DNA of 64,000 nt from Lysobacter sp. S4-A87. GTDB lineage: Bacteria > Pseudomonadota > Gammaproteobacteria > Xanthomonadales > Xanthomonadaceae. Below are positions 43,374 through 58,630 of the stretch, one piece after another. The translations under genes were made by a program, and so were the position numbers. A model generated the notes under the pieces. The model did not search any database. It was not told the DNA's origin and saw only the letters and a program-made list of their open reading frames with translations. The stretch covers positions 3,410,001 to 3,474,000 of the forward strand of contig NZ_CP093341.1 in the NCBI RefSeq assembly GCF_022637455.1, given 5' to 3'. Every line of letters starts with the position of its first letter. Position 1 is the stretch's first letter.

Positions 43374-43382
43374 CCGCTGGCC

Positions 43383-43411
43383 GTAGTCCGGGTAAGCGCA
43401 GCGCACCCGGG
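43383..43411. repeat. Single GTAG(T/C)CCGGG dispersed palindrome
   Basis: GTAGTCCGGGTAAGCGCAGC ending ...CACCCGGG. This is a single unit, unlike the inverted pairs elsewhere, in the 49-bp gap between the convergent MocR gene and a membrane-protein gene. Confidence 0.8.
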
Positions 43412-43956: not shown

Positions 43957-44514
43957 ATGTATTCCCGCAGCAGCGAACCCGTCCGTTTCGAGCGCGATTG
44001 CGCCGTTGTCATGGTCCCCCAGGGAGAACAGCTGACGTTGCCCGCGGGCAGCATCGGCTATATCACCCAGGGCCTTGGCGGCAGCTACACCGTGTTCGTC
44101 GAAGGCAACCTGTTCCGCGTCGCGGGACGGGATGCCGACGCCATCGGCAAGGAACCGCCGGAGCCGTTGGAGTTGCCCGAGGGCGCCGACGACGAGGCCG
44201 TCGAGCAACTGGTGTGGCGCCAGCTGCGCACCTGCTTCGATCCGGAGATCCCGATCAACGTGGTCGACCTGGGCCTGGTCTACGAGGCCAGCATCCAGCC
44301 GCATCCCGAGCAGGCGGGCAAGCGCCGCGTCGAAGTGCGCATGACCCTGACCGCGCCCGCCTGCGGCATGGGCGACATCCTCGTCGCCGACGTGCGCGAC
44401 AAGCTCGAGATGATCCCGACCGTGGCCGAGGCCGACGTCGAGCTCGTTTTCGACCCGCCGTGGAACCGCAACATGATGTCGGAAGCGGCCCGCCTCGAAA
44501 CCGGGATGTTCTGA
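43957..44514 (+). CDS. sufT: Fe-S cluster assembly protein SufT (DUF59)
   Basis: 185 residues. DUF59/MIP18 core: QLRTCFDPEIPINVVDLGLV, then TLTAPACGMGDILVADVRDK with the conserved cysteine in TAPACGMG. The C-terminal FDPPWNRNMMSEAARLETGM is typical of SufT, which assists maturation of Fe-S proteins. A short N-terminal beta domain (VVMVPQGEQLTLPAGSIGYI) is family-specific. No suf operon is adjacent. A short hairpin precedes the ATG. Confidence 0.9.
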   Translation: MYSRSSEPVRFERDCAVVMVPQGEQLTLPAGSIGYITQGLGGSYTVFVEGNLFRVAGRDADAIGKEPPEPLELPEGADDEAVEQLVWRQLRTCFDPEIPINVVDLGLVYEASIQPHPEQAGKRRVEVRMTLTAPACGMGDILVADVRDKLEMIPTVAEADVELVFDPPWNRNMMSEAARLETGMF

Positions 44515-45058
44515 AGCCCCCTTGAGTCCCCCGTAGCCCGGGTAAGCGAAGCGCACCCGGGTAAACGCGTGTCTGTCCCCCCGTGCGCTCCGCTTACCCG
44601 GGCTACGCCATCCAAGCTGAATGCGCAGCCGGAAAGGCTGAACGCGATGGCCTTCTCATTTCCGTGACTTTGCCAATCCTGTTCATTCGATTGGCGGTAG
44701 GGGGTCCCGGTATTGCTGCGTTGAGCTGGTTTGAGAGCGGAGGGGGCTGCTCTCGGCCTCGTCGCGCGGTTTCCGGACGCCGGGGCGCAGGACCTGGCAG
44801 CACGCACTCTCGCCGTCACCGCCATGAGGGCTCAAGCCCCGACCAGGTGACCGCCCTGCGTTCGTGCTGCCCGGTTGACCGCAGCCCGCTGCGGTCGTGG
44901 TTGCAGGCATCAAACGGTCGCCACCTCGACGTGGCGGACCGCCGAACGTGCCCGGCCCCGGCGTGGTGATCTCGCGGCGATGAATTCGCGGCGATGGATC
45001 CGCTTCCACGGGCCGGACCCGACCATCACGAAGTTCCTGACTTTGGGGGTTCCATCCG
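44515..45058. other. 544-bp gene-free stretch
   Basis: It holds the GTAGCCCGGG inverted pair (44533-44606) and a 14-bp tandem duplication (TCGCGGCGATGAAT at 44972, TCGCGGCGATGGAT at 44986). Otherwise I see no gene, terminator or promoter that I can support. Codon bias does not suggest a hidden CDS. Confidence 0.5.
44533..44606. repeat. GTAGCCCGGG dispersed palindrome, inverted pair
   Basis: GTAGCCCGGGTAAGCGAAGC... at 44533, and an inverted copy ending ...CTTACCCGGGCTAC at 44606, with a 10-base spacer. It lies 19 bases after the sufT stop. Confidence 0.9.
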
Positions 45059-47134
45059 ATGTCCGATCGTCACTCGCGTCGCATCCGCATGCACGCACTC
45101 TCCGTCGCCACCGTCGTCGCGATTTCCGCCAGCTTCGCCGCACCGGCCCTGGCGCAACAGGCACGCATCAATCTCTCCGGCCTGCAGGCCGACAGCGGCA
45201 ACGACCGCTTCATCGTCAAGTACAAGGACGGCAGTGCCGCCCAGACCAACGCTGCCACGATGCGCAGCGCGATCAGCTCGGCCGGCAAGGTCGTCGGCCT
45301 GACCCACGTGCGCCGCATCGCCACCGGTGCCGACGTGGTCCGCGCCGCGCGCAAGCTCGACCGCGTCGAGGCCGAGACGCTGATGCGCCAGATCGCTGCC
45401 GATCCGAGCGTCGAGTACGTCGAGGTCGACAAGCTCAACAAGCCGCTGCTGACCCCCAACGACACGCGATACAGCGAGCAGTGGGGCTATTCGGGCACCT
45501 ACGGCATCAAGGCCAACCTGGCCTGGGATGTCACCAACGGCGCCGGCGCAGTGGTCGCGGTGCTCGACACCGGCATCACCAGCCATAGCGATCTCAGTGC
45601 CAACATCCTGCCGGGTTACGACTTCATCATCGACACGGCGGTGTCCAACGATGGCAACGGCCGCGACAGCGATCCGAGCGATCCGGGCGACTGGGTCACC
45701 GCCAACCAGTGCGGCGGCACCCACGCAGCGCAGAACTCGAGCTGGCACGGCACCCACGTCGCCGGCACGATTGCCGCGGTGACCAACAACGCCAAGGGCG
45801 TGGCCGGCGTCGCGTACGGCGCCAAGATCGTCCCGGTGCGCGTGCTCGGCACCTGCGGCGGTTACGACTCCGACATCGCCGACGCCATCACCTGGGCATC
45901 CGGCGGTACCGTCAGCGGCGTACCGGCCAATGCCAATCCGGCCGAAGTCATCAACCTCAGCCTCGGCGGCAGCGGTGCCTGCGGCACCACCACCCAGACC
46001 GCCATCAACGGCGCGGTCGGTCGCGGCACCACCCTGGTCATCGCCGCCGGCAACGACAACACCAACGTCTCCAACGCTTCGCCGGCGAACTGCAACAACG
46101 TCATCGCCGTGGCCTCGATCACCAGCACCGGCGCACGTTCGAGCTTCTCCAACTATGGCTCGCTGATCGACATCGCCGCACCGGGCTCGAACATCCTGTC
46201 CACGCTCAACAGCGGTGCCACCACGCCGGGCGCCGAGACCTATGCGTCCTACAACGGCACCTCGATGGCGACCCCGCACGTTGCCGGCGTAGTGGCGCTG
46301 ATCCAGTCCGTGGCCACCACGCCGAAGACGCCGGCGCAGGTCGAGGCGCTGATCAAGGGCAACGTCACCGCGTTCCCGTCGACGCCCTCGCAGCCGATCG
46401 GCCCTGGCATCCTCAACGCCAAGGCCGTGGTCGATGCCACCAACGGCACCACGCCGCCGCCGACCGCCACGCCGCTGACCAACGGCGTTGCCGTGACCGG
46501 CGTCAGCGGCGCCGCCGGCAGCGACAAGCTTTACTCGCTCGACGTGCCCGCCGGTGCCACCGGCCTGAAGTTCGTCACCAGCGGCGGTACCGGCGATGCC
46601 GACCTGTACGTCAAGTTCGGCAGCGCACCGACCACCACGACGTTCGACTGCAAGTCCGAAAGCAGCAGCAACGCCGAGACCTGCAACATCGCCACCGCCC
46701 AGACCGGCAAGTACTACGTGCTGGTGCGCGGCTACGCGGCGTACTCGGGCCTGTCGCTGACCGGCAGCTACACCACCGGCGGTGGCGGCGGCACGCAGAC
46801 CTACAGCAACACCGCCGACTTCACCATCAGCGACAACGCCACGGTCGACAGCCCGGTCACCGTGTCGGGCCGGACCGGCAACGCACCGAGCAATGCATCG
46901 GTGACGGTCGCCATCGTGCACACCTACCAGGGTGACCTGAAGGTGGATCTGGTTGCGCCGGATGGCTCGCTCTACAACATCCACAACCGTACCGGCGGCA
47001 GTGCCGACAACGTCAACAAGACGGTCACGCTGAATCTCTCCAGCGAGCCGCTCAACGGCACGTGGAAGCTGCGCGTCAACGACAACGCCGGTGGCGATAC
47101 CGGCTACATCAACAGCTGGAGCGTGACGTTCTGA
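45059..47134 (+). CDS. Secreted S8 serine protease 2, with PPC and P domains
   Basis: 691 residues, the longest of the four proteases. Signal peptide (MSDRHSRRIRMHALSVATVV...AQQ), prodomain with NLSGLQADSGNDRFIVKYKD and DVVRAARKLDRVEAETLM. Triad Asp170 (VAVLDTGITSHSDL), His230 (SSWHGTHVAGTIAA), Ser402 (GTSMATPHVAGVVA). A PPC domain (DVPAGATGLKFVTSGGTGDA) is followed by a Gly-linker and a proprotein-convertase P domain (YSNTADFTISDNATVDSPVT, TYQGDLKVDLVAPDGSL, NAGGDTGYINSWSVTF). It is followed by a strong rho-independent terminator. It is likely exported by the Sec and type II secretion pathways. Confidence 0.93.
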   Translation: MSDRHSRRIRMHALSVATVVAISASFAAPALAQQARINLSGLQADSGNDRFIVKYKDGSAAQTNAATMRSAISSAGKVVGLTHVRRIATGADVVRAARKLDRVEAETLMRQIAADPSVEYVEVDKLNKPLLTPNDTRYSEQWGYSGTYGIKANLAWDVTNGAGAVVAVLDTGITSHSDLSANILPGYDFIIDTAVSNDGNGRDSDPSDPGDWVTANQCGGTHAAQNSSWHGTHVAGTIAAVTNNAKGVAGVAYGAKIVPVRVLGTCGGYDSDIADAITWASGGTVSGVPANANPAEVINLSLGGSGACGTTTQTAINGAVGRGTTLVIAAGNDNTNVSNASPANCNNVIAVASITSTGARSSFSNYGSLIDIAAPGSNILSTLNSGATTPGAETYASYNGTSMATPHVAGVVALIQSVATTPKTPAQVEALIKGNVTAFPSTPSQPIGPGILNAKAVVDATNGTTPPPTATPLTNGVAVTGVSGAAGSDKLYSLDVPAGATGLKFVTSGGTGDADLYVKFGSAPTTTTFDCKSESSSNAETCNIATAQTGKYYVLVRGYAAYSGLSLTGSYTTGGGGGTQTYSNTADFTISDNATVDSPVTVSGRTGNAPSNASVTVAIVHTYQGDLKVDLVAPDGSLYNIHNRTGGSADNVNKTVTLNLSSEPLNGTWKLRVNDNAGGDTGYINSWSVTF

Positions 47135-47174
47135 GTTGATCGGCCGCCTTTCGCGCGATCACGAAACACCATTG

Positions 47175-47204
47175 GCGCCCCGGTCTCGGCCGGGGCGCTT
47201 TTTT
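47175..47204 (+). terminator. Rho-independent terminator after protease 2
   Basis: Stem GCGCCCCGG (47175-47183) / CCGGGGCGC (47190-47198), loop TCTCGG, followed by six T. It is a textbook terminator. A decayed similar stem (GCGCCCCGG...CCGGGGCGC) is found at 49274-49297. Confidence 0.92.
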
Positions 47205-47381
47205 CTGCCCGACGCCCATGAATGTTCCAAGGTTGGCGGAGCCCATTGTGGGCTGGGGCGGACAACGGTTGCTGTCATGCCAGCCGTTGCATCGATGTTG
47301 TGTCGCGGATCGCTCCAGCGCAGCAGCCATCAGGGCCGGCCGGGATCTTCGATGCCGCGCGCGATGCCGCAGTGCGCAGTG

Positions 47382-47408
47382 TTGCGCGCTTGGCTGCGCC
47401 GCTACATT
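47382..47408 (+). promoter_or_regulatory. Candidate promoter of protease 3
   Basis: TTGCGC (47382-47387) and TACATT (47403-47408), spacing 15. The corresponding TTGCGT/TAGATT with spacing 16 lie upstream of protease 4 (49472-49499). This is an inference from conserved positions. Confidence 0.35.
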
Positions 47409-47546
47409 GCATTCAGCGGAGTGGGGCCGCTCGTTCCCGGTACATGCATCGCGTGTCCGGGACCGGCCACCCGCGGGGCCTTCGGAAACGGGGCATTCAC
47501 CCTTTCCTTCCATTCGATCTGCGTGATGGCCGGCGATGTCGCACTC
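47401..47546 (+). repeat. Duplicated non-coding leader, copy A
   Basis: It matches 49492-49635 with only a handful of substitutions and small indels by eye (for example ATTC/ACTC, CCGCGG/CCGCGA, a three-base insertion after CTTTCC). The region is 5' of the protease 3 ATG by about 100 bases, so it is an untranslated leader. Confidence 0.85.
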
Positions 47547-47642
47547 CACTGTGGCGTCGACGTTCCTGTGTTGCGTTCAGCCGAATGCCGCCTGCGTGGG
47601 GCCGGCTGTCTTCCCGCAGTTCGATACAAGGGGATTCCCAAA

Positions 47643-49046
47643 ATGTCAGTAGATCACTCACGTTCGTTCCGTGCCCGCTGCCTGTGCGCGGCACTGGTGA
47701 TTGCCGTGCCGGTCGCCATTCCGGTATCGGCACAGGATTCGCGGCTGAATCTGTCCGGCATGGGCGCCAGCGACCGCTTCGACCGCTTCATCGTCAAGTA
47801 CCGCGACGGCAGCGCCGCCCAGGTCGATTCCGCCGCACTGCAGCGGTCGCTCCACGCCGTATCGTCCGTGCAGGGGCGAGGCAACGCCATGGCCTTGAAA
47901 CACGTTCACCGGATTGCCACGGGCGCAGATGTGGTCAGCGTCAACCGCAAGCTCGACCGGGTCGATGCGCAGTCGCTGATGCGCCAGATCGCCAGCGATC
48001 CGAGCGTGGAGTACGTCGAGGTCGATCACCTCATGTTGCCGGCCAAGCGGCCCAAGGATTCCAGTTACGTATCCCAGTGGGGGCTGCATGGAATCAATGG
48101 CATCGATGCCGCCAGGGCCTGGAGGCGCGGCGATGGTCGCGGCACCGTAGTGGCGGTGATCGATTCCGGCATCACGAGGCACAGTGATCTCGATGGGAAC
48201 GTGCTGCCAGGGTACGACTTCATCAGCCGCGCCGACGTTTCCAACGATGGCAACGGACGCGACGGCGATCCCTCTGATCCGGGTGACTGGGTCAGGGCAG
48301 GGCAATGCGGAGCTGGGAGTCCTGCGAGGGACTCAAGCTGGCACGGCACGCATGTGGCTGGCACCATTGCGGCGGTCACCAACAATGGCAAGGGAGTAGC
48401 CGGTGTCGCCCCCGCTGCCAGGATCGTGCCAGTACGCGTGCTGGGCACCTGCGGTGGCTTTGAATCCGACATCGCAGACGCGATCGTCTGGGCGTCGGGA
48501 GGAGACGTCCCCGGAGTTCCGGCCAACGCCAATCCGGCCGAAGTGATCAACCTGAGCCTCCAGCGTCCCGGGCAGTGCAGCGCGACCTTCCAAGGCGCGA
48601 TCAACTTCGCGGTCAGCCGCGGGACGACGTTGGTCGTTGCCGCCGGCAACGGTTCGACGGACGTCTCCGGCCAGCGGCTGGCAAGCTGCGACAACGTGAT
48701 TGTCGTGGCGGCGACCAACCGGTTGGGCCGACGCACGCGTTCGTCCAACCATGGATCGAAGGTCGACATCGCGGCGCCCGGCATTGGCATTCTGTCGACG
48801 ACCAACGGCGGCGAAACGAAGCCCCAAAGAGAAGACTATGGCAGCGCGGACGGCACCTCGGTGGCCGCACCGCACGTTGCCGGCGTCGTGGCGCTCATCC
48901 AGTCGGCGGTGGCCACGCCCAAGTCGCCTGCGCAGGTCGAGGCATTGATCAAACACACCGCGTCACGTGCCAAGTCACGACCGGCTGAGCCCATCGGAGC
49001 TGGCATCGTCAATGCGAAATCGGCAGTGGATGCAGCGGTCCGGTAG
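47643..49046 (+). CDS. Secreted S8 serine protease 3, no C-terminal domain
   Basis: 467 residues. Signal peptide (MSVDHSRSFRARCLCAALVI...SAQ), prodomain with RLNLSGMGASDRFDRFIVKY and DVVSVNRKLDRVDAQSLMRQ. Triad Asp174 (VAVIDSGITRHSDL), His234 (SSWHGTHVAGTIAA), Ser406 (DGTSVAAPHVAGVV). It ends just after the catalytic domain, without PPC or P domain. Start at 47643 has AAGGGGATTCCC upstream. It is preceded by the duplicated leader, followed by a terminator. The triad residue numbers are identical to protease 4. Confidence 0.93.
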   Translation: MSVDHSRSFRARCLCAALVIAVPVAIPVSAQDSRLNLSGMGASDRFDRFIVKYRDGSAAQVDSAALQRSLHAVSSVQGRGNAMALKHVHRIATGADVVSVNRKLDRVDAQSLMRQIASDPSVEYVEVDHLMLPAKRPKDSSYVSQWGLHGINGIDAARAWRRGDGRGTVVAVIDSGITRHSDLDGNVLPGYDFISRADVSNDGNGRDGDPSDPGDWVRAGQCGAGSPARDSSWHGTHVAGTIAAVTNNGKGVAGVAPAARIVPVRVLGTCGGFESDIADAIVWASGGDVPGVPANANPAEVINLSLQRPGQCSATFQGAINFAVSRGTTLVVAAGNGSTDVSGQRLASCDNVIVVAATNRLGRRTRSSNHGSKVDIAAPGIGILSTTNGGETKPQREDYGSADGTSVAAPHVAGVVALIQSAVATPKSPAQVEALIKHTASRAKSRPAEPIGAGIVNAKSAVDAAVR

Positions 49047-49059
49047 CCCATGGACAAGA

Positions 49060-49090
49060 AAACACCCCGCTGATACCGGGGTGTTTCTTG
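49060..49090 (+). terminator. Rho-independent terminator after protease 3
   Basis: Perfect 10-bp stem AAACACCCCG (49060-49069) / CGGGGTGTTT (49077-49086) with a seven-base loop, followed by CTTG. It lies 14 bases after the stop. Confidence 0.8.
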
Positions 49091-49127
49091 CATCCCGCGC
49101 GCTTCCGGGCGATTGCTGCCAGTCGTG

Positions 49128-49237
49128 CGATCAGTCCGCTTCGAAGCGGTTGGCCGCGACGTTCTTGCGGACCCTGGTCGGATCCCAGATGCGTCCGTTC
49201 ATGGCGATGTAGACGCCCGGCGGCAGCGACTGCACCG
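49128..49237 (-). repeat. Exact 110-bp copy of the asparaginase 3' end
   Basis: Every base from CGATCAGTCCGC to GCGACTGCACCG is identical to 51267-51376, which covers the stop codon and about 35 codons of the asparaginase gene. In this copy the rest of the gene is absent, so it is a fragment. Confidence 0.93.
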
Positions 49238-49491
49238 TTTTGCAGGCTGCGAGTCATCGCGAAATTGCTCAGCGCCCCGGTCCTGGCCGGGGCGCGTTTC
49301 ATTCTGGCGTCGATGGATGTGCTCGGGTTGTCGCTAGTCGTTCGGCATCGAGGCGATCAAATCGATGTCATGCCAGCCGGGCTTCGCCAATGTGTCGGGG
49401 GCGCTCGCAGGCGGCTTTTCGCAGAGCCTTCCGGGGGGTTCGATACCGTCCAGGTGCGCCGCTGCGCGGTGTTGCGTGGGTGGCCCGCGTT

Positions 49492-49635
49492 GCTAGATTG
49501 CACTCAGCGGAGTGGGGCCGCTCGTTCCCGGTACATGCATCGCGTGTCCGGGACCGGCCACCCGCGAGGCCTTCGGAAACGGGGCATTCACCCTTTCCAT
49601 TTCGATCTGCGTGATGGCCGGCGATGTCCGCACTC
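49492..49635 (+). repeat. Duplicated non-coding leader, copy B
   Basis: Counterpart of 47401-47546, about 105 bases upstream of the protease 4 ATG. The upstream 30-40 bases are recognisably similar too. Confidence 0.85.
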
Positions 49636-49738
49636 GAGTGAGACGTCGACGTCTGTCGTGCGCACAGCCGGTGCCCTCACGTGACCGGCTGCCAACTCGC
49701 AGTTCGATGCAAGGTTAGATACAAGGGGATCCAACACC

Positions 49739-51166
49739 ATGTCAGTCCTTCGAGCACGTTCGTTTCGTGTCCAGCTACTGTGTGGGGCGCTTGCAGTGGC
49801 GCTGGCTCACGCCGCTCCGGCGTCAGCGCAGCAGTCACGCCTGAACTTGAGCGGCATGAATTCCGGTGATCGCTACGATCGCTTCATCGTCAAATATCGC
49901 GACGACAGCGCCGCCCATTCCAGTCCCGCGGCGCTGCAACGGTCGCTTCAGGCAATGGCGACGCCGCGCGGGCGTGGCAACGCCATGGCACTCAAGCGCC
50001 TGCACCGCATCGCCACTGGCGCCGATGTGGTGAGCGTCGACCGCGGCCTCGACCGCGTCGAAGCCGAATCGCTGATGCGCCAGTTCGCCGCCGATCCCGG
50101 TGTCGAATACGTCGAGGTCGACCACATCGTCCGGCCGGCGCTGACCCCGAATGATCCGCGATATCGGCGCCAATGGTCCTACTGGGGCAACAACGGCATC
50201 GACGCCGATGAGGCCTGGGACCTCAGCGACGGCTCCGGAACGGTGGTCGCGGTGCTCGATACCGGCATCACGCGGCACAGCGATCTCGACGAGAACGTCC
50301 GCCCCGGCTACGACTTCATCAGCAGCACCCGGTCCTCCAACGATGGCGATGGACGCGACGGCGATCCGTCCGACCCCGGCGACTGGGAACGGGCCGGGCA
50401 GTGCGGCGAGGGGCGTCCCGCGCGGGCATCCAGTTGGCACGGCACACACGTCGCCGGCACGATCGCTGCGGTCACCAACAATGGCAAGGGTGTCGCCGGG
50501 GTCGCGCATTCCGGCTGGATCGTGCCGGTGCGCGTTCTGGGTACGTGCGGCGGTCACGTTTCGGACGTTGCCGACGCGATCATCTGGGCCTCCGGCGGGG
50601 CTGTCGCCGGCGTCCCGGAAAACCCCTATCCGGCCGAAGTACTCAACCTCAGCCTGAGCCATCGCGCGAGCTGCGGCCGTACCTACCAGCGTGCAATCGA
50701 CAGCGCGGTCAGTCGCGGCACGACGATAGTGGTTGCGGCAGGCAATGAATCGGCTGACGTTGCGGGATCATCGCCGGCCAGTTGCGACAACGTGATCGCG
50801 GTGGCGGCAACCACGCGGCCTGGCAGGCGGGCAGGTTTCTCCAACTACGGAGGGAAGGTCGACGTGGCCGCACCGGGTTCGCACATTCTTTCGACGCTCA
50901 ACAGCGGCAGTACCCGGCCCGAAACCGAGATCTACGGCACGCGCAGCGGCACTTCGATGGCAGCGCCACACGTCACCGGCGTTGTTGCGATCATCCAGTC
51001 GGTCGCTGGTACGCCGAAGACGCCGGCGCAGGTGGAAGCGCTGGTCAAGTCCACGGCAAAGGCCACCCGGGCCAGGCCGTCACGGCCGATTGGTGCCGGC
51101 ATCGTCAATGCCAAGGCGGCGCTGGATGCGACCATCGCGCCATTGCCGCCGGTTCCGGTGGACTAG
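49739..51166 (+). CDS. Secreted S8 serine protease 4, no C-terminal domain
   Basis: 475 residues. Signal peptide (MSVLRARSFRVQLLCGALAV...ASAQ), prodomain with RLNLSGMNSGDRYDRFIVKY and RGLDRVEAESLMRQFAADPG. Triad Asp174 (VAVLDTGITRHSDL), His234 (SSWHGTHVAGTIAA) and Ser406 (SGTSMAAPHVTGVVA). Ends with a Pro-rich tail (IAPLPPVPVD) directly after the catalytic domain. It is closest to protease 3 by eye but clearly diverged along its whole length. AAGGGGATCC precedes the ATG. The gene is convergent with asparaginase, with a shared hairpin between. Confidence 0.93.
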   Translation: MSVLRARSFRVQLLCGALAVALAHAAPASAQQSRLNLSGMNSGDRYDRFIVKYRDDSAAHSSPAALQRSLQAMATPRGRGNAMALKRLHRIATGADVVSVDRGLDRVEAESLMRQFAADPGVEYVEVDHIVRPALTPNDPRYRRQWSYWGNNGIDADEAWDLSDGSGTVVAVLDTGITRHSDLDENVRPGYDFISSTRSSNDGDGRDGDPSDPGDWERAGQCGEGRPARASSWHGTHVAGTIAAVTNNGKGVAGVAHSGWIVPVRVLGTCGGHVSDVADAIIWASGGAVAGVPENPYPAEVLNLSLSHRASCGRTYQRAIDSAVSRGTTIVVAAGNESADVAGSSPASCDNVIAVAATTRPGRRAGFSNYGGKVDVAAPGSHILSTLNSGSTRPETEIYGTRSGTSMAAPHVTGVVAIIQSVAGTPKTPAQVEALVKSTAKATRARPSRPIGAGIVNAKAALDATIAPLPPVPVD

Positions 51167-51219
51167 CCGACACATGCAGCGCCTGGATTCGCAGGTGCGA
51201 CATGCGTCCCTGGAAGAAA

Positions 51220-51244
51220 AACGCCCCGGCATTGCCGGGGCGTT
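51220..51244. terminator. Bidirectional terminator between protease 4 and asparaginase
   Basis: Perfect 11-bp stem AACGCCCCGGC / GCCGGGGCGTT with an ATT loop. The preceding AAGAAAA gives a T-run for the minus-strand asparaginase transcript; the plus-strand side has TTGTC. Confidence 0.8.
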
Positions 51245-51269
51245 GTCGATTCTGATGCGCGGCCAGCGA

Positions 51270-51755
51270 TCAGTCCGCTTCGAAGCGGTTGGCCGCGACG
51301 TTCTTGCGGACCCTGGTCGGATCCCAGATGCGTCCGTTCATGGCGATGTAGACGCCCGGCGGCAGCGACTGCACCGCGCCGACCGCGCAGCCGACGTTGA
51401 ACTCGGCATCGGAACCGCGGAAACGGGCCGGGCTCAGCGCACCCGTCAGCACGATTACTTTGTCGCCCAGGCTCGACAGCACCTTGGCGGTCTCCACCAT
51501 CGTGTCGGTGCCGTGGGTGATCAGCACGTGGCGCGCCGGTTGTGCGGCGATGGTCGCCCGGATCAGCTGGCGGTCCTCGGCGGTGATGTGCAGCGAGTCC
51601 TTGCGCAGGATCGGGATCACGTTGAACTGGAAGGCGACGCCCAGCTCGCGCAGGATCCCGCCGATCTGCGGCTCGCCGATCTGGTAGTCCGACTTGTCGT
51701 CGAAGTAGATCTTGTCGATCGTGCCGCCGGTGGTGACGATGCAGAGCTGATCCAT
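51270..51755 (-). CDS. Short asparaginase-family protein (N-terminal domain only)
   Basis: 161 residues. The asparaginase active-site motifs TTGGTIDK (residues 8-15) and HGTDTMVETAKVLS (middle) are present, so the catalytic Thr residues are there. The C-terminal domain of normal 330-residue asparaginases is missing, and the gene ends with its own terminator, so it is not simply broken. Short single-domain asparaginase relatives occur in proteobacteria; activity is uncertain. Its 3' 110 bp is duplicated at 49128-49237. Confidence 0.75.
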   Translation of the reverse strand: MDQLCIVTTGGTIDKIYFDDKSDYQIGEPQIGGILRELGVAFQFNVIPILRKDSLHITAEDRQLIRATIAAQPARHVLITHGTDTMVETAKVLSSLGDKVIVLTGALSPARFRGSDAEFNVGCAVGAVQSLPPGVYIAMNGRIWDPTRVRKNVAANRFEAD

Positions 51756-51839
51756 CGTGATGCGCGCGCTGGGGGAGATGTCGGCAATTATACGGCCGCT
51801 ATACGGCCGCCGCCGGTCTCTCCCGCCAGGTCAGCCGAT

Positions 51840-52169
51840 TCAACGCTTGCGCGCGAACCGCGCCCGCAGCCCGGGCAGATTGCCGGCGAAGACGACCACC
51901 AGTGCCAGCACGATCTCGGCCGTGGCATGGGCGCGTTCGCCGGGGCGGGAGTACGCCACCATCACGCCATGGCTGAACCAGCCCAGCGCGAACACCCCGG
52001 CCCAGAAGGACGCCTTGCGGTTGCCGCGCAGCGCCGCGACTGCCAGCAGCACCGGCGGCAGCGCGAACACGGCCAGGGCGACCCAGGGCGATGGCTGCGG
52101 CGCGAACCAGGCCACGAACACCGACGCCAGCGCCAGCAGCGCCACGATCAATACCCAGCGCGCGCTCAT
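51840..52169 (-). CDS. Membrane protein, DUF2069
   Basis: 109 residues with three to four helices (ALLALASVFVAWFAP, WVALAVFALPPVLLAVAALR, ASFWAGVFALGWFSHGVMVA, AEIVLALVVVFAGNLPGLRA). The FWAGVFALGWFSHGVMVAYS block is typical of DUF2069 proteins, which sit next to wrbA in many proteobacteria. The ATG overlaps the wrbA stop (ATGA), so they are one operon. Confidence 0.8.
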   Translation of the reverse strand: MSARWVLIVALLALASVFVAWFAPQPSPWVALAVFALPPVLLAVAALRGNRKASFWAGVFALGWFSHGVMVAYSRPGERAHATAEIVLALVVVFAGNLPGLRARFARKR

Positions 52170-52759
52170 GCGGCCACCTTCGCGACCAGCATCGCCAGGC
52201 GACGGCCGAGGGCGCGTGCGAGCTGCGCTTCCTCGTCGCTGGGTTGCGGGTCGTCGCCACTGCCGGCGACGTGGCTGGCGCCGTACGGCGTGCCGCCGCT
52301 GCGCGTGCTGGTCAGTGCCGGTTCGGTGTACGGAATGCCCATCAGCACGCAGCCGTGGTGCAGCAGCGGCACCATCATCGTCAGCAGGGTCGATTCCTGG
52401 CCGCCGTGCATCGTCGCGGTGGAGGTGAACACCGCCGCGGGCTTGTCGACCAGCGTGCCACTGGCCCATTCGGCGCCGAGCCCATCGAGCCAATGCTTGA
52501 CCGGTGCGGCCATGTTGCCGAAGCGGGTGGGGCTGCCCAGTGCGATGCCCGCGCACTCGACCAGGTCGCGGGCCTCGACGTAGGGGGCGCCATCGTCCGG
52601 CACCGGCGGCGCCGCGGTCTGCGTCACCGCCGCCACCGGCGGCACGGTGCGGATGCGCGCGCCGACGCCTTCGACCTCGCCGATGCCGCGCGCGATCTGC
52701 CGCGCCAGGCGCGCCACTGAGCCGCCACGGCTGTAATAGAGCACCAGGATCTCGGTCAT
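52166..52759 (-). CDS. wrbA: NAD(P)H:quinone oxidoreductase WrbA
   Basis: 197 residues with a flavodoxin-like fold. The FMN phosphate loop is VLYYSRGGSVARLARQIARG, and GIALGSPTRFGNMAAPVKHW and FTSTATMHGGQESTLLTMMV are WrbA-specific. It reduces quinones by two electrons, avoiding radicals. It carries a typical insertion near residues 40-55 (VPPVAAVTQTAAPPVP). The ATG at 52759 is the natural start. DUF2069 follows. Confidence 0.9.
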   Translation of the reverse strand: MTEILVLYYSRGGSVARLARQIARGIGEVEGVGARIRTVPPVAAVTQTAAPPVPDDGAPYVEARDLVECAGIALGSPTRFGNMAAPVKHWLDGLGAEWASGTLVDKPAAVFTSTATMHGGQESTLLTMMVPLLHHGCVLMGIPYTEPALTSTRSGGTPYGASHVAGSGDDPQPSDEEAQLARALGRRLAMLVAKVAA

Positions 52760-52879
52760 CGCATTGGTTCGTGAGGCGTGAGGCGGGAAGGATAGTGGAA
52801 GTGGCGGTCCGACGTGACCGGGCGCACATGCCCGGCCCCGTGACCCCGCGCTCCCCGCGCATCGGTTACCCTCCGCCCG

Positions 52880-54782: not shown

Positions 54783-55048
54783 GCGCGGCGCGCTTCATCG
54801 TCAGTGGTCGCGTGCAGGGCGTGTTCTTCCGCGCTTCGACCCGCGACCAGGCACTGGCGCTGGGCTTGCGCGGATTCGCCCGGAACCTGCCGGACGGCCG
54901 TGTCGAAGTGCTCGCGGCCGGTGACGACGTGGCACTCGACCGGCTCGCCGCGTGGCTGCGGCAAGGCCCGGCCATGGCGCAGGTGGACGACCTCGAGCGC
55001 CTGGCAGCGCTGGACAACGAAGCCGGCGAAACCTTCGTGATCTCGTAG
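54779..55048 (+). CDS. acyP: Acylphosphatase
   Basis: 89 residues; hydrolyses acyl phosphates. The catalytic pair is Arg18 (GRVQGVFFRASTRDQA) and Asn36 (LRGFARNLPDGRVEV), as in all acylphosphatases. The start overlaps the stop of the TlpA-like gene. Its TAG stop lies inside a dispersed palindrome (55045-55073). Confidence 0.93.
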   Translation: MSAARFIVSGRVQGVFFRASTRDQALALGLRGFARNLPDGRVEVLAAGDDVALDRLAAWLRQGPAMAQVDDLERLAALDNEAGETFVIS

Positions 55049-55073
55049 CCCGGGTAAGCAACGCGCACCCGGG
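55045..55073. repeat. Single GTAGCCCGGG palindrome supplying the acyP stop
   Basis: GTAGCCCGGGTAAGCAACGC... ends ...CACCCGGG. TAG at 55046-55048 is the acyP stop codon. Confidence 0.85.
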
Positions 55074-56810: not shown

Positions 56811-56871
56811 GGCGGCGAGCCTAACCGATTGCCTGTGTGATGGCGGTGCTCACCTTTGCGGCCCCGCCTCC

Positions 56872-56939
56872 GTAGCCCGGGTAAGCGCAGCGCACCCGGG
56901 ATTGACGGTCCCCGGGTGCGCTGCGCTTACCCGGGCTAC
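56872..56939. repeat. GTAGCCCGGG inverted pair supplying the OGT stop
   Basis: GTAGCCCGGGTAAGCGCAGC... at 56872 and an inverted copy ending ...CTTACCCGGGCTAC at 56939. The TAG stop of the minus-strand OGT gene is the complement of CTA at 56936-56938, inside the repeat. Confidence 0.9.
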
Positions 56940-58630
56940 CGGCGCGCCATCGCGCGCACCGCGTCGGCAAAGTCACGCGCAAAGCCGCCCATGTCGAACA
57001 GGCCGCTCTCGCTTCGTCGAAGAGCCAGCTCGTCCTTGAGCGCATCCAACGCGCGCGGATCCCTCCCCAGCGCGACCGCGCGCGCCACGAATGCCGCATC
57101 GTCGGCGACATTCATGTCCATCATGCCGAGGTGATGATTGAGGCTGCCGGCAACACGCGCCGCGAACGTCTCGCCCGGTCGCGTCAGTACCGGACACCCG
57201 GCCCACAAGGCATCCGATGCGGTGGTGTGGGCGTTGTAGGGCTCGGTGTCGAGGAACAGGTCGGCGTGCTGCAGCCGGGCCATGTACTCGGCGTGCGGTT
57301 GCTTGGGCATGAACACCAGCCGGGCGGGATCGACTCCCTGCATGCGCGCAACATCGCCCAGGCGCGCGTCGGCGTGGCCCGGTCCCGACAACAGCCACAG
57401 CACACTGCCGGGCGCGTCGCGCAGCACCGCCAATGCGCGCGTCACGCTGCGCGGGTTGAGTTTGTAGCTGTTGTTGAAGCAGCAGAACACCACGCCTTCG
57501 CCGTCGGTGCCGCGCTCGGGAAGGCCGCATTGCGCGCGCGACGGCGGCGGCAGGAGCGCGCGCGTGGTATCGGACGGCTGGAAGCAGCGCGGCAGCCACA
57601 CCACGTTCTCGCTGAAGGCGTGCGCCATCGTTTCCGGCAGCACGAAGCGGTCGGCCAGCACATGATCGATCCAGGGTGCGCCGGACGTGCCTGGGTAGGC
57701 CAGCCAGTTCACCTGCACCGGCGCGGGTCGCATCGCCAGTACTTCCGGCGCGCCACCGCCGCCCCAGCCGCGCAGGTCGAACAGCACGTCGATGCCGGCC
57801 GCGCGGATGGCCGTCGCCACCTGCGCATGCGCGCGCATCGAGACATCGTGCAATGTGTGGGCGGCGGCCTGCAGGCGCTGGCGGATCGGACTGCCGTCGT
57901 CGTCGTTGAGCGCGAACAGGTGGATCTCCATGTCCGTCTGCGCCTTGAGTCGTTCGAACATCGCCGCCGTGAGCAGGCCGGTCGGATGTGCGCCGAAACC
58001 GTTGGAAAGGAAGCCGACGCGGATCGGCCCGGCGGCCGCGGCCTCCGGTGGCGGCATCGTGCGCACTGCCGCGGCTACGACACCCGCGCGAAGGCGCGCG
58101 CAGCGCAACTGTTCCAGGGCGCTGGCGTCCTCGCTGAGAAAGGCGAACGGTTCGACCGATGCGCTGCCGTTGTTGACCGCATCGCGGACCTGGCGCGCAA
58201 GCGCGTCGAGATCGCGCCAGTCACACAGTTTGCGCCGCCAGGCCAGCAGGTAGGCGGCCAGTTGCGGTTCGTCCGGGGCCAGCGCGTGTGCACGCGCGTA
58301 GGCCTGCGATGCGGCTTCGGCCTCGCCGGCGTCTTCCAGCGCATGCCCCAGCCAGACCGCGATGCCGGGATGATCGGGCGCATTGGCCGCGGCCGCGCGC
58401 AGGCTGGCGACAGCCTCGCCGCGCTGGCCCTGCATCCACTGCGCGCGCCCCAGTCGCGCCAGCGCTTCGGGATGGCCGGGCCTCAGCGCGAGTGCGCGCT
58501 GCGCAGCCATCGCGCCGGCGGCGGCATCGCCGCGATCGAGCTCATGTTCGGCCAGCAGGATCCAGGCAAAGCCATCGCCGGGATTGCGCTCGAGTGCGCG
58601 GCGCAATTCGATGCGCGGATCGTTGTGCAC
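56936..58630 (-). CDS. TPR-containing O-GlcNAc-transferase homologue (GT41)
   Basis: 564 residues with N-terminal TPRs (residues 5-130: AWILLAEHELDRGDAAAGAM, ALARLGRAQWMQGQRGEAVA, IAVWLGHALEDAGEAEAASQ). The family GT41 catalytic region follows with RVGFLSNGFGAHPTG (His215) and FCCFNNSYKLNPRSV (Lys390, matching the UDP-binding lysine of OGT), and PNAHTTASDALWAG-type motif YNAHTTASDALWAGCPVL. It is similar to the Xanthomonas XcOGT. The start is GTG at 58630, three bases after the GNAT stop, so translation is coupled. The natural protein substrate is unknown. Confidence 0.88.
   Translation of the reverse strand: MHNDPRIELRRALERNPGDGFAWILLAEHELDRGDAAAGAMAAQRALALRPGHPEALARLGRAQWMQGQRGEAVASLRAAAANAPDHPGIAVWLGHALEDAGEAEAASQAYARAHALAPDEPQLAAYLLAWRRKLCDWRDLDALARQVRDAVNNGSASVEPFAFLSEDASALEQLRCARLRAGVVAAAVRTMPPPEAAAAGPIRVGFLSNGFGAHPTGLLTAAMFERLKAQTDMEIHLFALNDDDGSPIRQRLQAAAHTLHDVSMRAHAQVATAIRAAGIDVLFDLRGWGGGGAPEVLAMRPAPVQVNWLAYPGTSGAPWIDHVLADRFVLPETMAHAFSENVVWLPRCFQPSDTTRALLPPPSRAQCGLPERGTDGEGVVFCCFNNSYKLNPRSVTRALAVLRDAPGSVLWLLSGPGHADARLGDVARMQGVDPARLVFMPKQPHAEYMARLQHADLFLDTEPYNAHTTASDALWAGCPVLTRPGETFAARVAGSLNHHLGMMDMNVADDAAFVARAVALGRDPRALDALKDELALRRSESGLFDMGGFARDFADAVRAMARR

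Follow-up and report, generated by a model that had tools for sequence, protein, structure and literature searches.

The window analysed here is a stretch of 64,000 nucleotides from Lysobacter sp. S4-A87 (NZ_CP093341.1, positions 3,410,001 to 3,474,000, forward strand). Our subject is the part in which the subtilase genes P2, P3 and P4 are followed by a short asparaginase-like gene on the opposite strand (Table 1). In P3 and P4 the Pfam search detected neither the PPC domain nor the P domain that P2 has. By alignment, the DNA behind P2 falls into two collinear tandem units, 47135-49237 and 49238-51376. Each of them opens with a spacer whose start resembles the P2 3' region; then come a leader, a protease gene, a 3' flank containing a hairpin and, last, the end of the asparaginase gene. 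The identity between the two units differs from part to part, with about 60% in the spacer, about 70% in the protease, 95% in the leader and 100% in the asparaginase end. The two asparaginase ends, F1 and F2, form a direct repeat that flanks a unit of 2,139 bp. The hairpin behind P3, which is absent from the terminator-scan list, is a possible terminator of P3. Outside the two units, short repeats that look like REP elements, several of them as palindromic pairs of the GTAGCCCGGGTAAGCGCAGCGCACCCGGG type, are found at 43378-43411, 44528-44607, 55040-55073 and 56865-56946.

Table 1. Features of the locus between P2 and the asparaginase-like gene (positions in the window).
Feature	Position	Strand	Description
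P2	45059..47134	+	Subtilase with PPC and P domains (Pfam: PF00082, PF04151, PF01483)
Spacer A	47135..47395		P2 3' region followed by intergenic DNA; similarity to spacer B about 60% (unit alignment)
Terminator-like hairpin in spacer A	47174-47199		Terminator scan
L1	47396..47545	+	Leader island 5' of P3; 95% identical to L2
P3	47643..49046	+	Subtilase, 467 aa (Pfam: PF00082); nearest relative P4
Hairpin 3' of P3	49060..49086	+	9-bp stem, 9-base loop, short T-poor tail; read from the sequence
F1	49127..49237	+	Copy of the asparaginase 3' end, 111 bp long and sharply bounded
Spacer B	49238..49486		Follows the new joint 49237/49238; resembles spacer A and the P2 3' region
L2	49487..49634	+	Leader island 5' of P4
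P4	49739..51166	+	Subtilase, 475 aa (Pfam: PF00082); nearest relative P3
Terminator-like hairpin between P4 and asparaginase	51220..51244		Terminator scan
F2	51266..51376	-	Native 3' end of asparaginase and presumed source of F1
Short asparaginase-like gene	51270..51755	-	161 aa (Pfam: PF00710); intact, conserved

An earlier note on this DNA had described an identical copy of the asparaginase 3' end between the third and the fourth protease. This was confirmed, with one base more at the left end and none at the right, so that F1 and F2 are identical over 111 bp. F2 comprises the final 107 bases of the asparaginase gene, stop codon included, and the four bases downstream. An exact repeat of this length is far beyond chance. 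In a whole-genome search with the 110 bases of the original description, F1 and F2 were the sole full-length copies in the genome. A third, partial match of 35 bases with 89% identity (C1:1415614-1415648) is taken as a chance match, since it sits in an unrelated long frame of 686 amino acids that looks like a membrane protein. With 0 differences in 111 positions, the 95% upper bound on the divergence of F1 and F2 is 2.7%, and two copies with 5% divergence would be free of differences with a probability of 0.003.

The presence of a repeat is the one point that speaks for an assembly artefact, which the earlier note had named as a possible objection. We regard such an error as extremely unlikely, because the genome is a single contig (99.99% complete) and a 111-bp direct repeat with unique flanks allows one consistent linear order, the one order that would keep P4 in the chromosome. 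Direct repeats of a gene 3' end around the 2,139-bp unit could also be the attachment-site repeat of an integrating element that inserted into the end of the asparaginase gene. However, no integrase was found, none of the six other long frames within or overlapping the unit matched Pfam, where P4 was the only match, and the P4 unit resembles the P3 unit from end to end. Moreover, 111 bp would be long for an attachment-site core, and this explanation is hardly credible.

We compared the locus with the other genomes of the genus, 12 genomes including the window's own, with one genome per species. The 161-amino-acid asparaginase is present over 159-161 residues with 92-99% amino acid identity in all 11 congeners (tblastn), so the short gene is not a truncated one. 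All 11 also have a P2 relative with 81-96% identity beside the asparaginase gene (tblastn; in G009 and G010, only part of the P2 relative lies inside the fetched loci). The F1 copy is absent from all 11 in a whole-genome search of the genus: each congener has one match of 95-113 bases, which is the asparaginase gene itself, and the nearest congener (G001) has one extra 30-base match elsewhere in its genome. This comparison with sibling genomes had been suggested in the earlier note, and its outcome argues for a recent event.

In the nearest congener, P2 is directly followed by the asparaginase gene, with 77 bp between the stop codons. The homology between this genome and the window breaks off at 47146 and starts again at 51214, and window positions 47147-51213 with P3, F1 and P4 are missing. 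Other congeners hold different genes between P2 and asparaginase, including further subtilases. All three frames tested from this interval (in G003, G010 and G011; Pfam) are reprolysin-like metallopeptidases with a P domain, and the interval of G011 also holds a DUF488 gene (Pfam). We infer that the interval between P2 and asparaginase is hypervariable and serves related strains as a site for exchanging divergent protease cassettes by way of the shared flanks.

The proteases have indeed diverged at the protein level, as the earlier note had it. P3 and P4 share 68.7% amino acid identity, with a dS of 0.98 (Nei-Gojobori, own script) and differences at 103 of 203 fourfold sites. Four genes of the window compared with the nearest congener gave a dS of 0.22-0.29, so that the P3/P4 divergence is about four times as large, and the split of P3 and P4 is several times older than that of the two genomes. 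F1, or its last homogenisation, is younger than the latter split: a divergence below 2.7% falls well inside the time since then, and F1 carries the window base at all six sites where the asparaginase end of the window differs from that of G001.

A simple recent tandem duplication, with P3 and P4 diverging afterwards, would account for the tandem and collinear layout. It would make all parts of the unit equally old, whereas half the fourfold sites of the proteases differ and not one base of the fragment does, and F1 is not expected to evolve more slowly than the proteases. As F1 is far younger than the split of P3 and P4, plain tandem duplication of one protease cannot account for it. This explanation is refuted unless gene conversion is added, and we give it almost no credence. 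Of the earlier proposal that F1 was copied recently, by gene conversion or unequal crossing-over, the recent date stands, based on the absence from all congeners, the lack of differences and the shared window bases. Simple unequal crossing-over is refuted by the difference in age, and gene conversion is possible and not needed.

A protein tree built from 20 sequences of the genus places P3 and P4 as sister branches, both long, with support of 100/99. Relatives of P3 were sought in 395 genomes of the family, and those of P4 in 12 genomes of the genus and 397 of the order. Among the candidates scored, which were the best four or fewer per genome in the family and order searches and had E-values up to 1e-180 in the order, no relative of P3 or P4 outside the pair exceeded 64% amino acid identity, and the best reached 62-64%. 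A separate contig search, which perhaps did not cover the window's own genome, kept 80 loci, all of them distant subtilases, the best with 57% identity in a 'Lysobacterales bacterium' MAG. A plasmid as the origin of P4 was rejected, since all nine plasmid records were less than 60% identical and the eight listed ones were at 42-50%. The GC3 of P3 and P4 is 0.77, compared with 0.90 for P2 and 0.92 for asparaginase, which suggests a foreign origin or relaxed codon choice.

The explanation we consider probable is that two protease cassettes were recently placed in tandem, which left F1 behind as a stub without function. It starts from two single-cassette haplotypes that we infer from the sequences, P2-P3-asparaginase and P2-P4-asparaginase. 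The incoming DNA would have carried P2, P3 and the last 111 bp of the asparaginase end, and the recipient chromosome P2, P4 and asparaginase. The P2 side of the incoming piece may have joined by homology, for which the P2 flank would be the anchor, and the other end would have joined without real homology just behind the P2 stop. In the outcome P3 would be added and the ragged asparaginase end left as F1. The route would be homology-facilitated illegitimate recombination (HFIR) or an equivalent non-allelic event, and this exact route is the least certain step. F1 would equal F2 because donor and recipient were close relatives, and P3 would differ from P4 because they were already distinct cassettes before they were joined. 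Against this scenario, DNA has not visibly been lost, whereas classical HFIR usually deletes DNA, and a difference of 30% is large for alleles of one species. A gene of the ComEC family is present in the genome; such a gene also occurs in 10 of the 14 control genomes, among them E. coli, and is therefore uninformative on competence.

The edges of F1 and their flanks bear on this reading. The flank between P4 and asparaginase resembles the flank between P2 and asparaginase in G001, with 0 of 1,000 shuffles as good, and the asparaginase flank on the P4 side is by this likeness the native one. The F1 identity starts abruptly four bases past the stop of asparaginase and runs up to the joint 49237/49238. 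Here the asparaginase end meets the spacer that resembles the P2 3' region, and a 20-base word spanning this joint has a single occurrence in the window. There is a possible CCG microhomology at the joint, with the window P2's own 3' region as a stand-in for the parent. On the left, the last 40 bp before F1 resemble neither the P4 nor the G001 flank (anchored p about 0.29 in each case). Taken as a whole, the P3 3' flank has a weak likeness to both, with anchored p 0.032 and local p 0.044 for the P4 flank and anchored p 0.008 and local p 0.236 for the G001 flank, and this signal rests largely on the hairpin. It would fit a former position of P3 directly beside asparaginase and would fit an old duplication as well, and so it also counts against the recent joining of two cassettes.

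The main rival is such an old tandem duplication of one cassette, with its right breakpoint 111 bp inside the asparaginase gene, after which gene conversion kept the older stub F1, and with it the leader, alike. We consider it unlikely, though a serious alternative. The units are collinear along their entire length, the leader island is homogenised too, and the weak likeness of the whole P3 flank to the P4 and G001 flanks agrees with it. However, that likeness is mostly the hairpin, the last 40 bp left of F1 contain no recognisable diverged P4-asparaginase flank, and a conversion tract would have to span the whole stub to its very edges. Its right edge would be the joint itself, and on its left the adjoining 40 bp are without clear homology while the flank as a whole is weakly alike.

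Homogenisation that looks like gene conversion does occur in the same interval of other genomes. In G006 and G011 (loci L021 and L026), the P domain of the reprolysin-like gene shares 96% and 95% DNA identity, respectively, with the corresponding domain of that genome's P2. Compared with the same gene in six other genomes, the reprolysin-like P domains of G006 and G011 are 80-84% identical, and 90% identical to each other. The reprolysin-like gene and the adjacent subtilase gene P2, whose catalytic parts are unrelated, thus have a nearly identical 3' end in these two genomes. The process thus occurs in the interval, which speaks also for the conversion rival. Against this, six of the eight testable genomes are without P-domain homogenisation, and the two positives may share one event.

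Besides F1, the leader islands L1 and L2 are a second abnormally similar stretch, with an anomaly almost as marked as that of F1. Their best identity over 150 columns is 0.93 despite the dS of 0.98 between P3 and P4, and the island pair is found in the window's own genome only, one of the 12 genus genomes. Ordinary functional constraint was considered as a cause and is unlikely, because P2-ortholog leaders are that similar at a dS of 0.22-0.23 only: three of 36 P2-leader pairs, from nine of the 12 genomes (G005, G009 and G010 omitted), reached at least 0.93 in a 150-column window, all of them at this divergence. A partial functional constraint on the leader island is conceivable. With a young leader and a young far end in each unit, and an old spacer and protease, the pattern fits recombination between flanks shared within the species around exchangeable contents.

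A GC-rich leader of about 300 nt with long invariant stretches is present upstream of P2 in the window (44640-45058) and in seven congeners (loci L017, L018, L019, L021, L022, L023 and L026), with a mean column identity of 78% over seven genomes. Part of this leader resembles L1 and L2. The nearest congener is without the part that matches window positions 44755-44903. A structured leader RNA as the cause of the likeness was rejected, since the RNAalifold covariation term for the seven P2-ortholog leaders was +1.02, which is no covariation support. No Rfam match reached the gathering score in window positions 44500-52800 or in four relatives.

A further, rather doubtful extension is that P3 and P4 belong to a cassette-exchange locus that is still active, in which recombination of F1 with F2 would excise P4 as a circle of 2,139 bp and recombination of L1 with L2 would remove P3. 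If so, asparaginase would be left whole after F1-F2 recombination, a population could switch among states with P3, P4 or both, and the circle could integrate into the genome of any close relative, again at the asparaginase end.

As the alternative to a recent origin, it had been proposed that F1 is retained, as an antisense RNA to asparaginase or as a recombination target. Selection would then keep F1, and the antisense RNA would act in trans on the asparaginase mRNA. An RNA from the P3 strand would be perfectly complementary to the asparaginase mRNA end. However, none of the 11 congeners has retained F1, and its folding is no better than that of shuffles (z of 0.04 and -0.46 for the two strands). 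F1 also lies downstream of the possible P3 terminator hairpin. No sigma-70-like promoter was found in 44500-51800, which weighs little, as none was found there for any gene. Furthermore, the convergent pair of P4 and asparaginase already permits antisense RNA by read-through, so F1 would add little. Retention for either role is unsupported and very improbable, and the sequence gives no reason to assign F1 a function. The perfect conservation of a fragment is no sign of function when no relative keeps it.

Recent tandem placement of two cassettes would make F1 a dated footprint, one that points to two old protease genes having been neighbours for a short time only. If they have, the interval between P2 and asparaginase probably turns over by recombination. 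The locus matters mainly as an example of how a repertoire of secreted proteases is rearranged.

Short, highly identical islands within diverged paralogous units are typical of gene conversion between neighbouring paralogs. The F1 locus likewise has short near-identical islands in diverged units; unlike in that process, the F1 island represents an unrelated gene's end, cut off on one side and sharply bounded. The excerpted text of PMC4657364 does not mention the P2-asparaginase locus. The locus shares with the small variable segments between conserved genes of bacterial genomes (PMC2884548) short genome-specific DNA between conserved anchors, here P2 and asparaginase. It differs from them in that secreted-type peptidase genes (subtilases and a reprolysin-like gene) make up much of its content, though with a DUF488 gene in G011, and in the repeat at one edge. 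HFIR is the closest described reaction to the proposed F1 event. According to PMC3240628, HFIR joins DNA by homology at one end and illegitimately at the other, where 3-10 bp of microhomology are mostly present, and in its classical form usually deletes about as much recipient DNA as is inserted. Unlike such products, the F1 locus has no visible deletion. Like them, it has an illegitimate joint, found here at 49237/49238, which together with a putative one-sided homology would give a small insertion with a ragged edge fragment.
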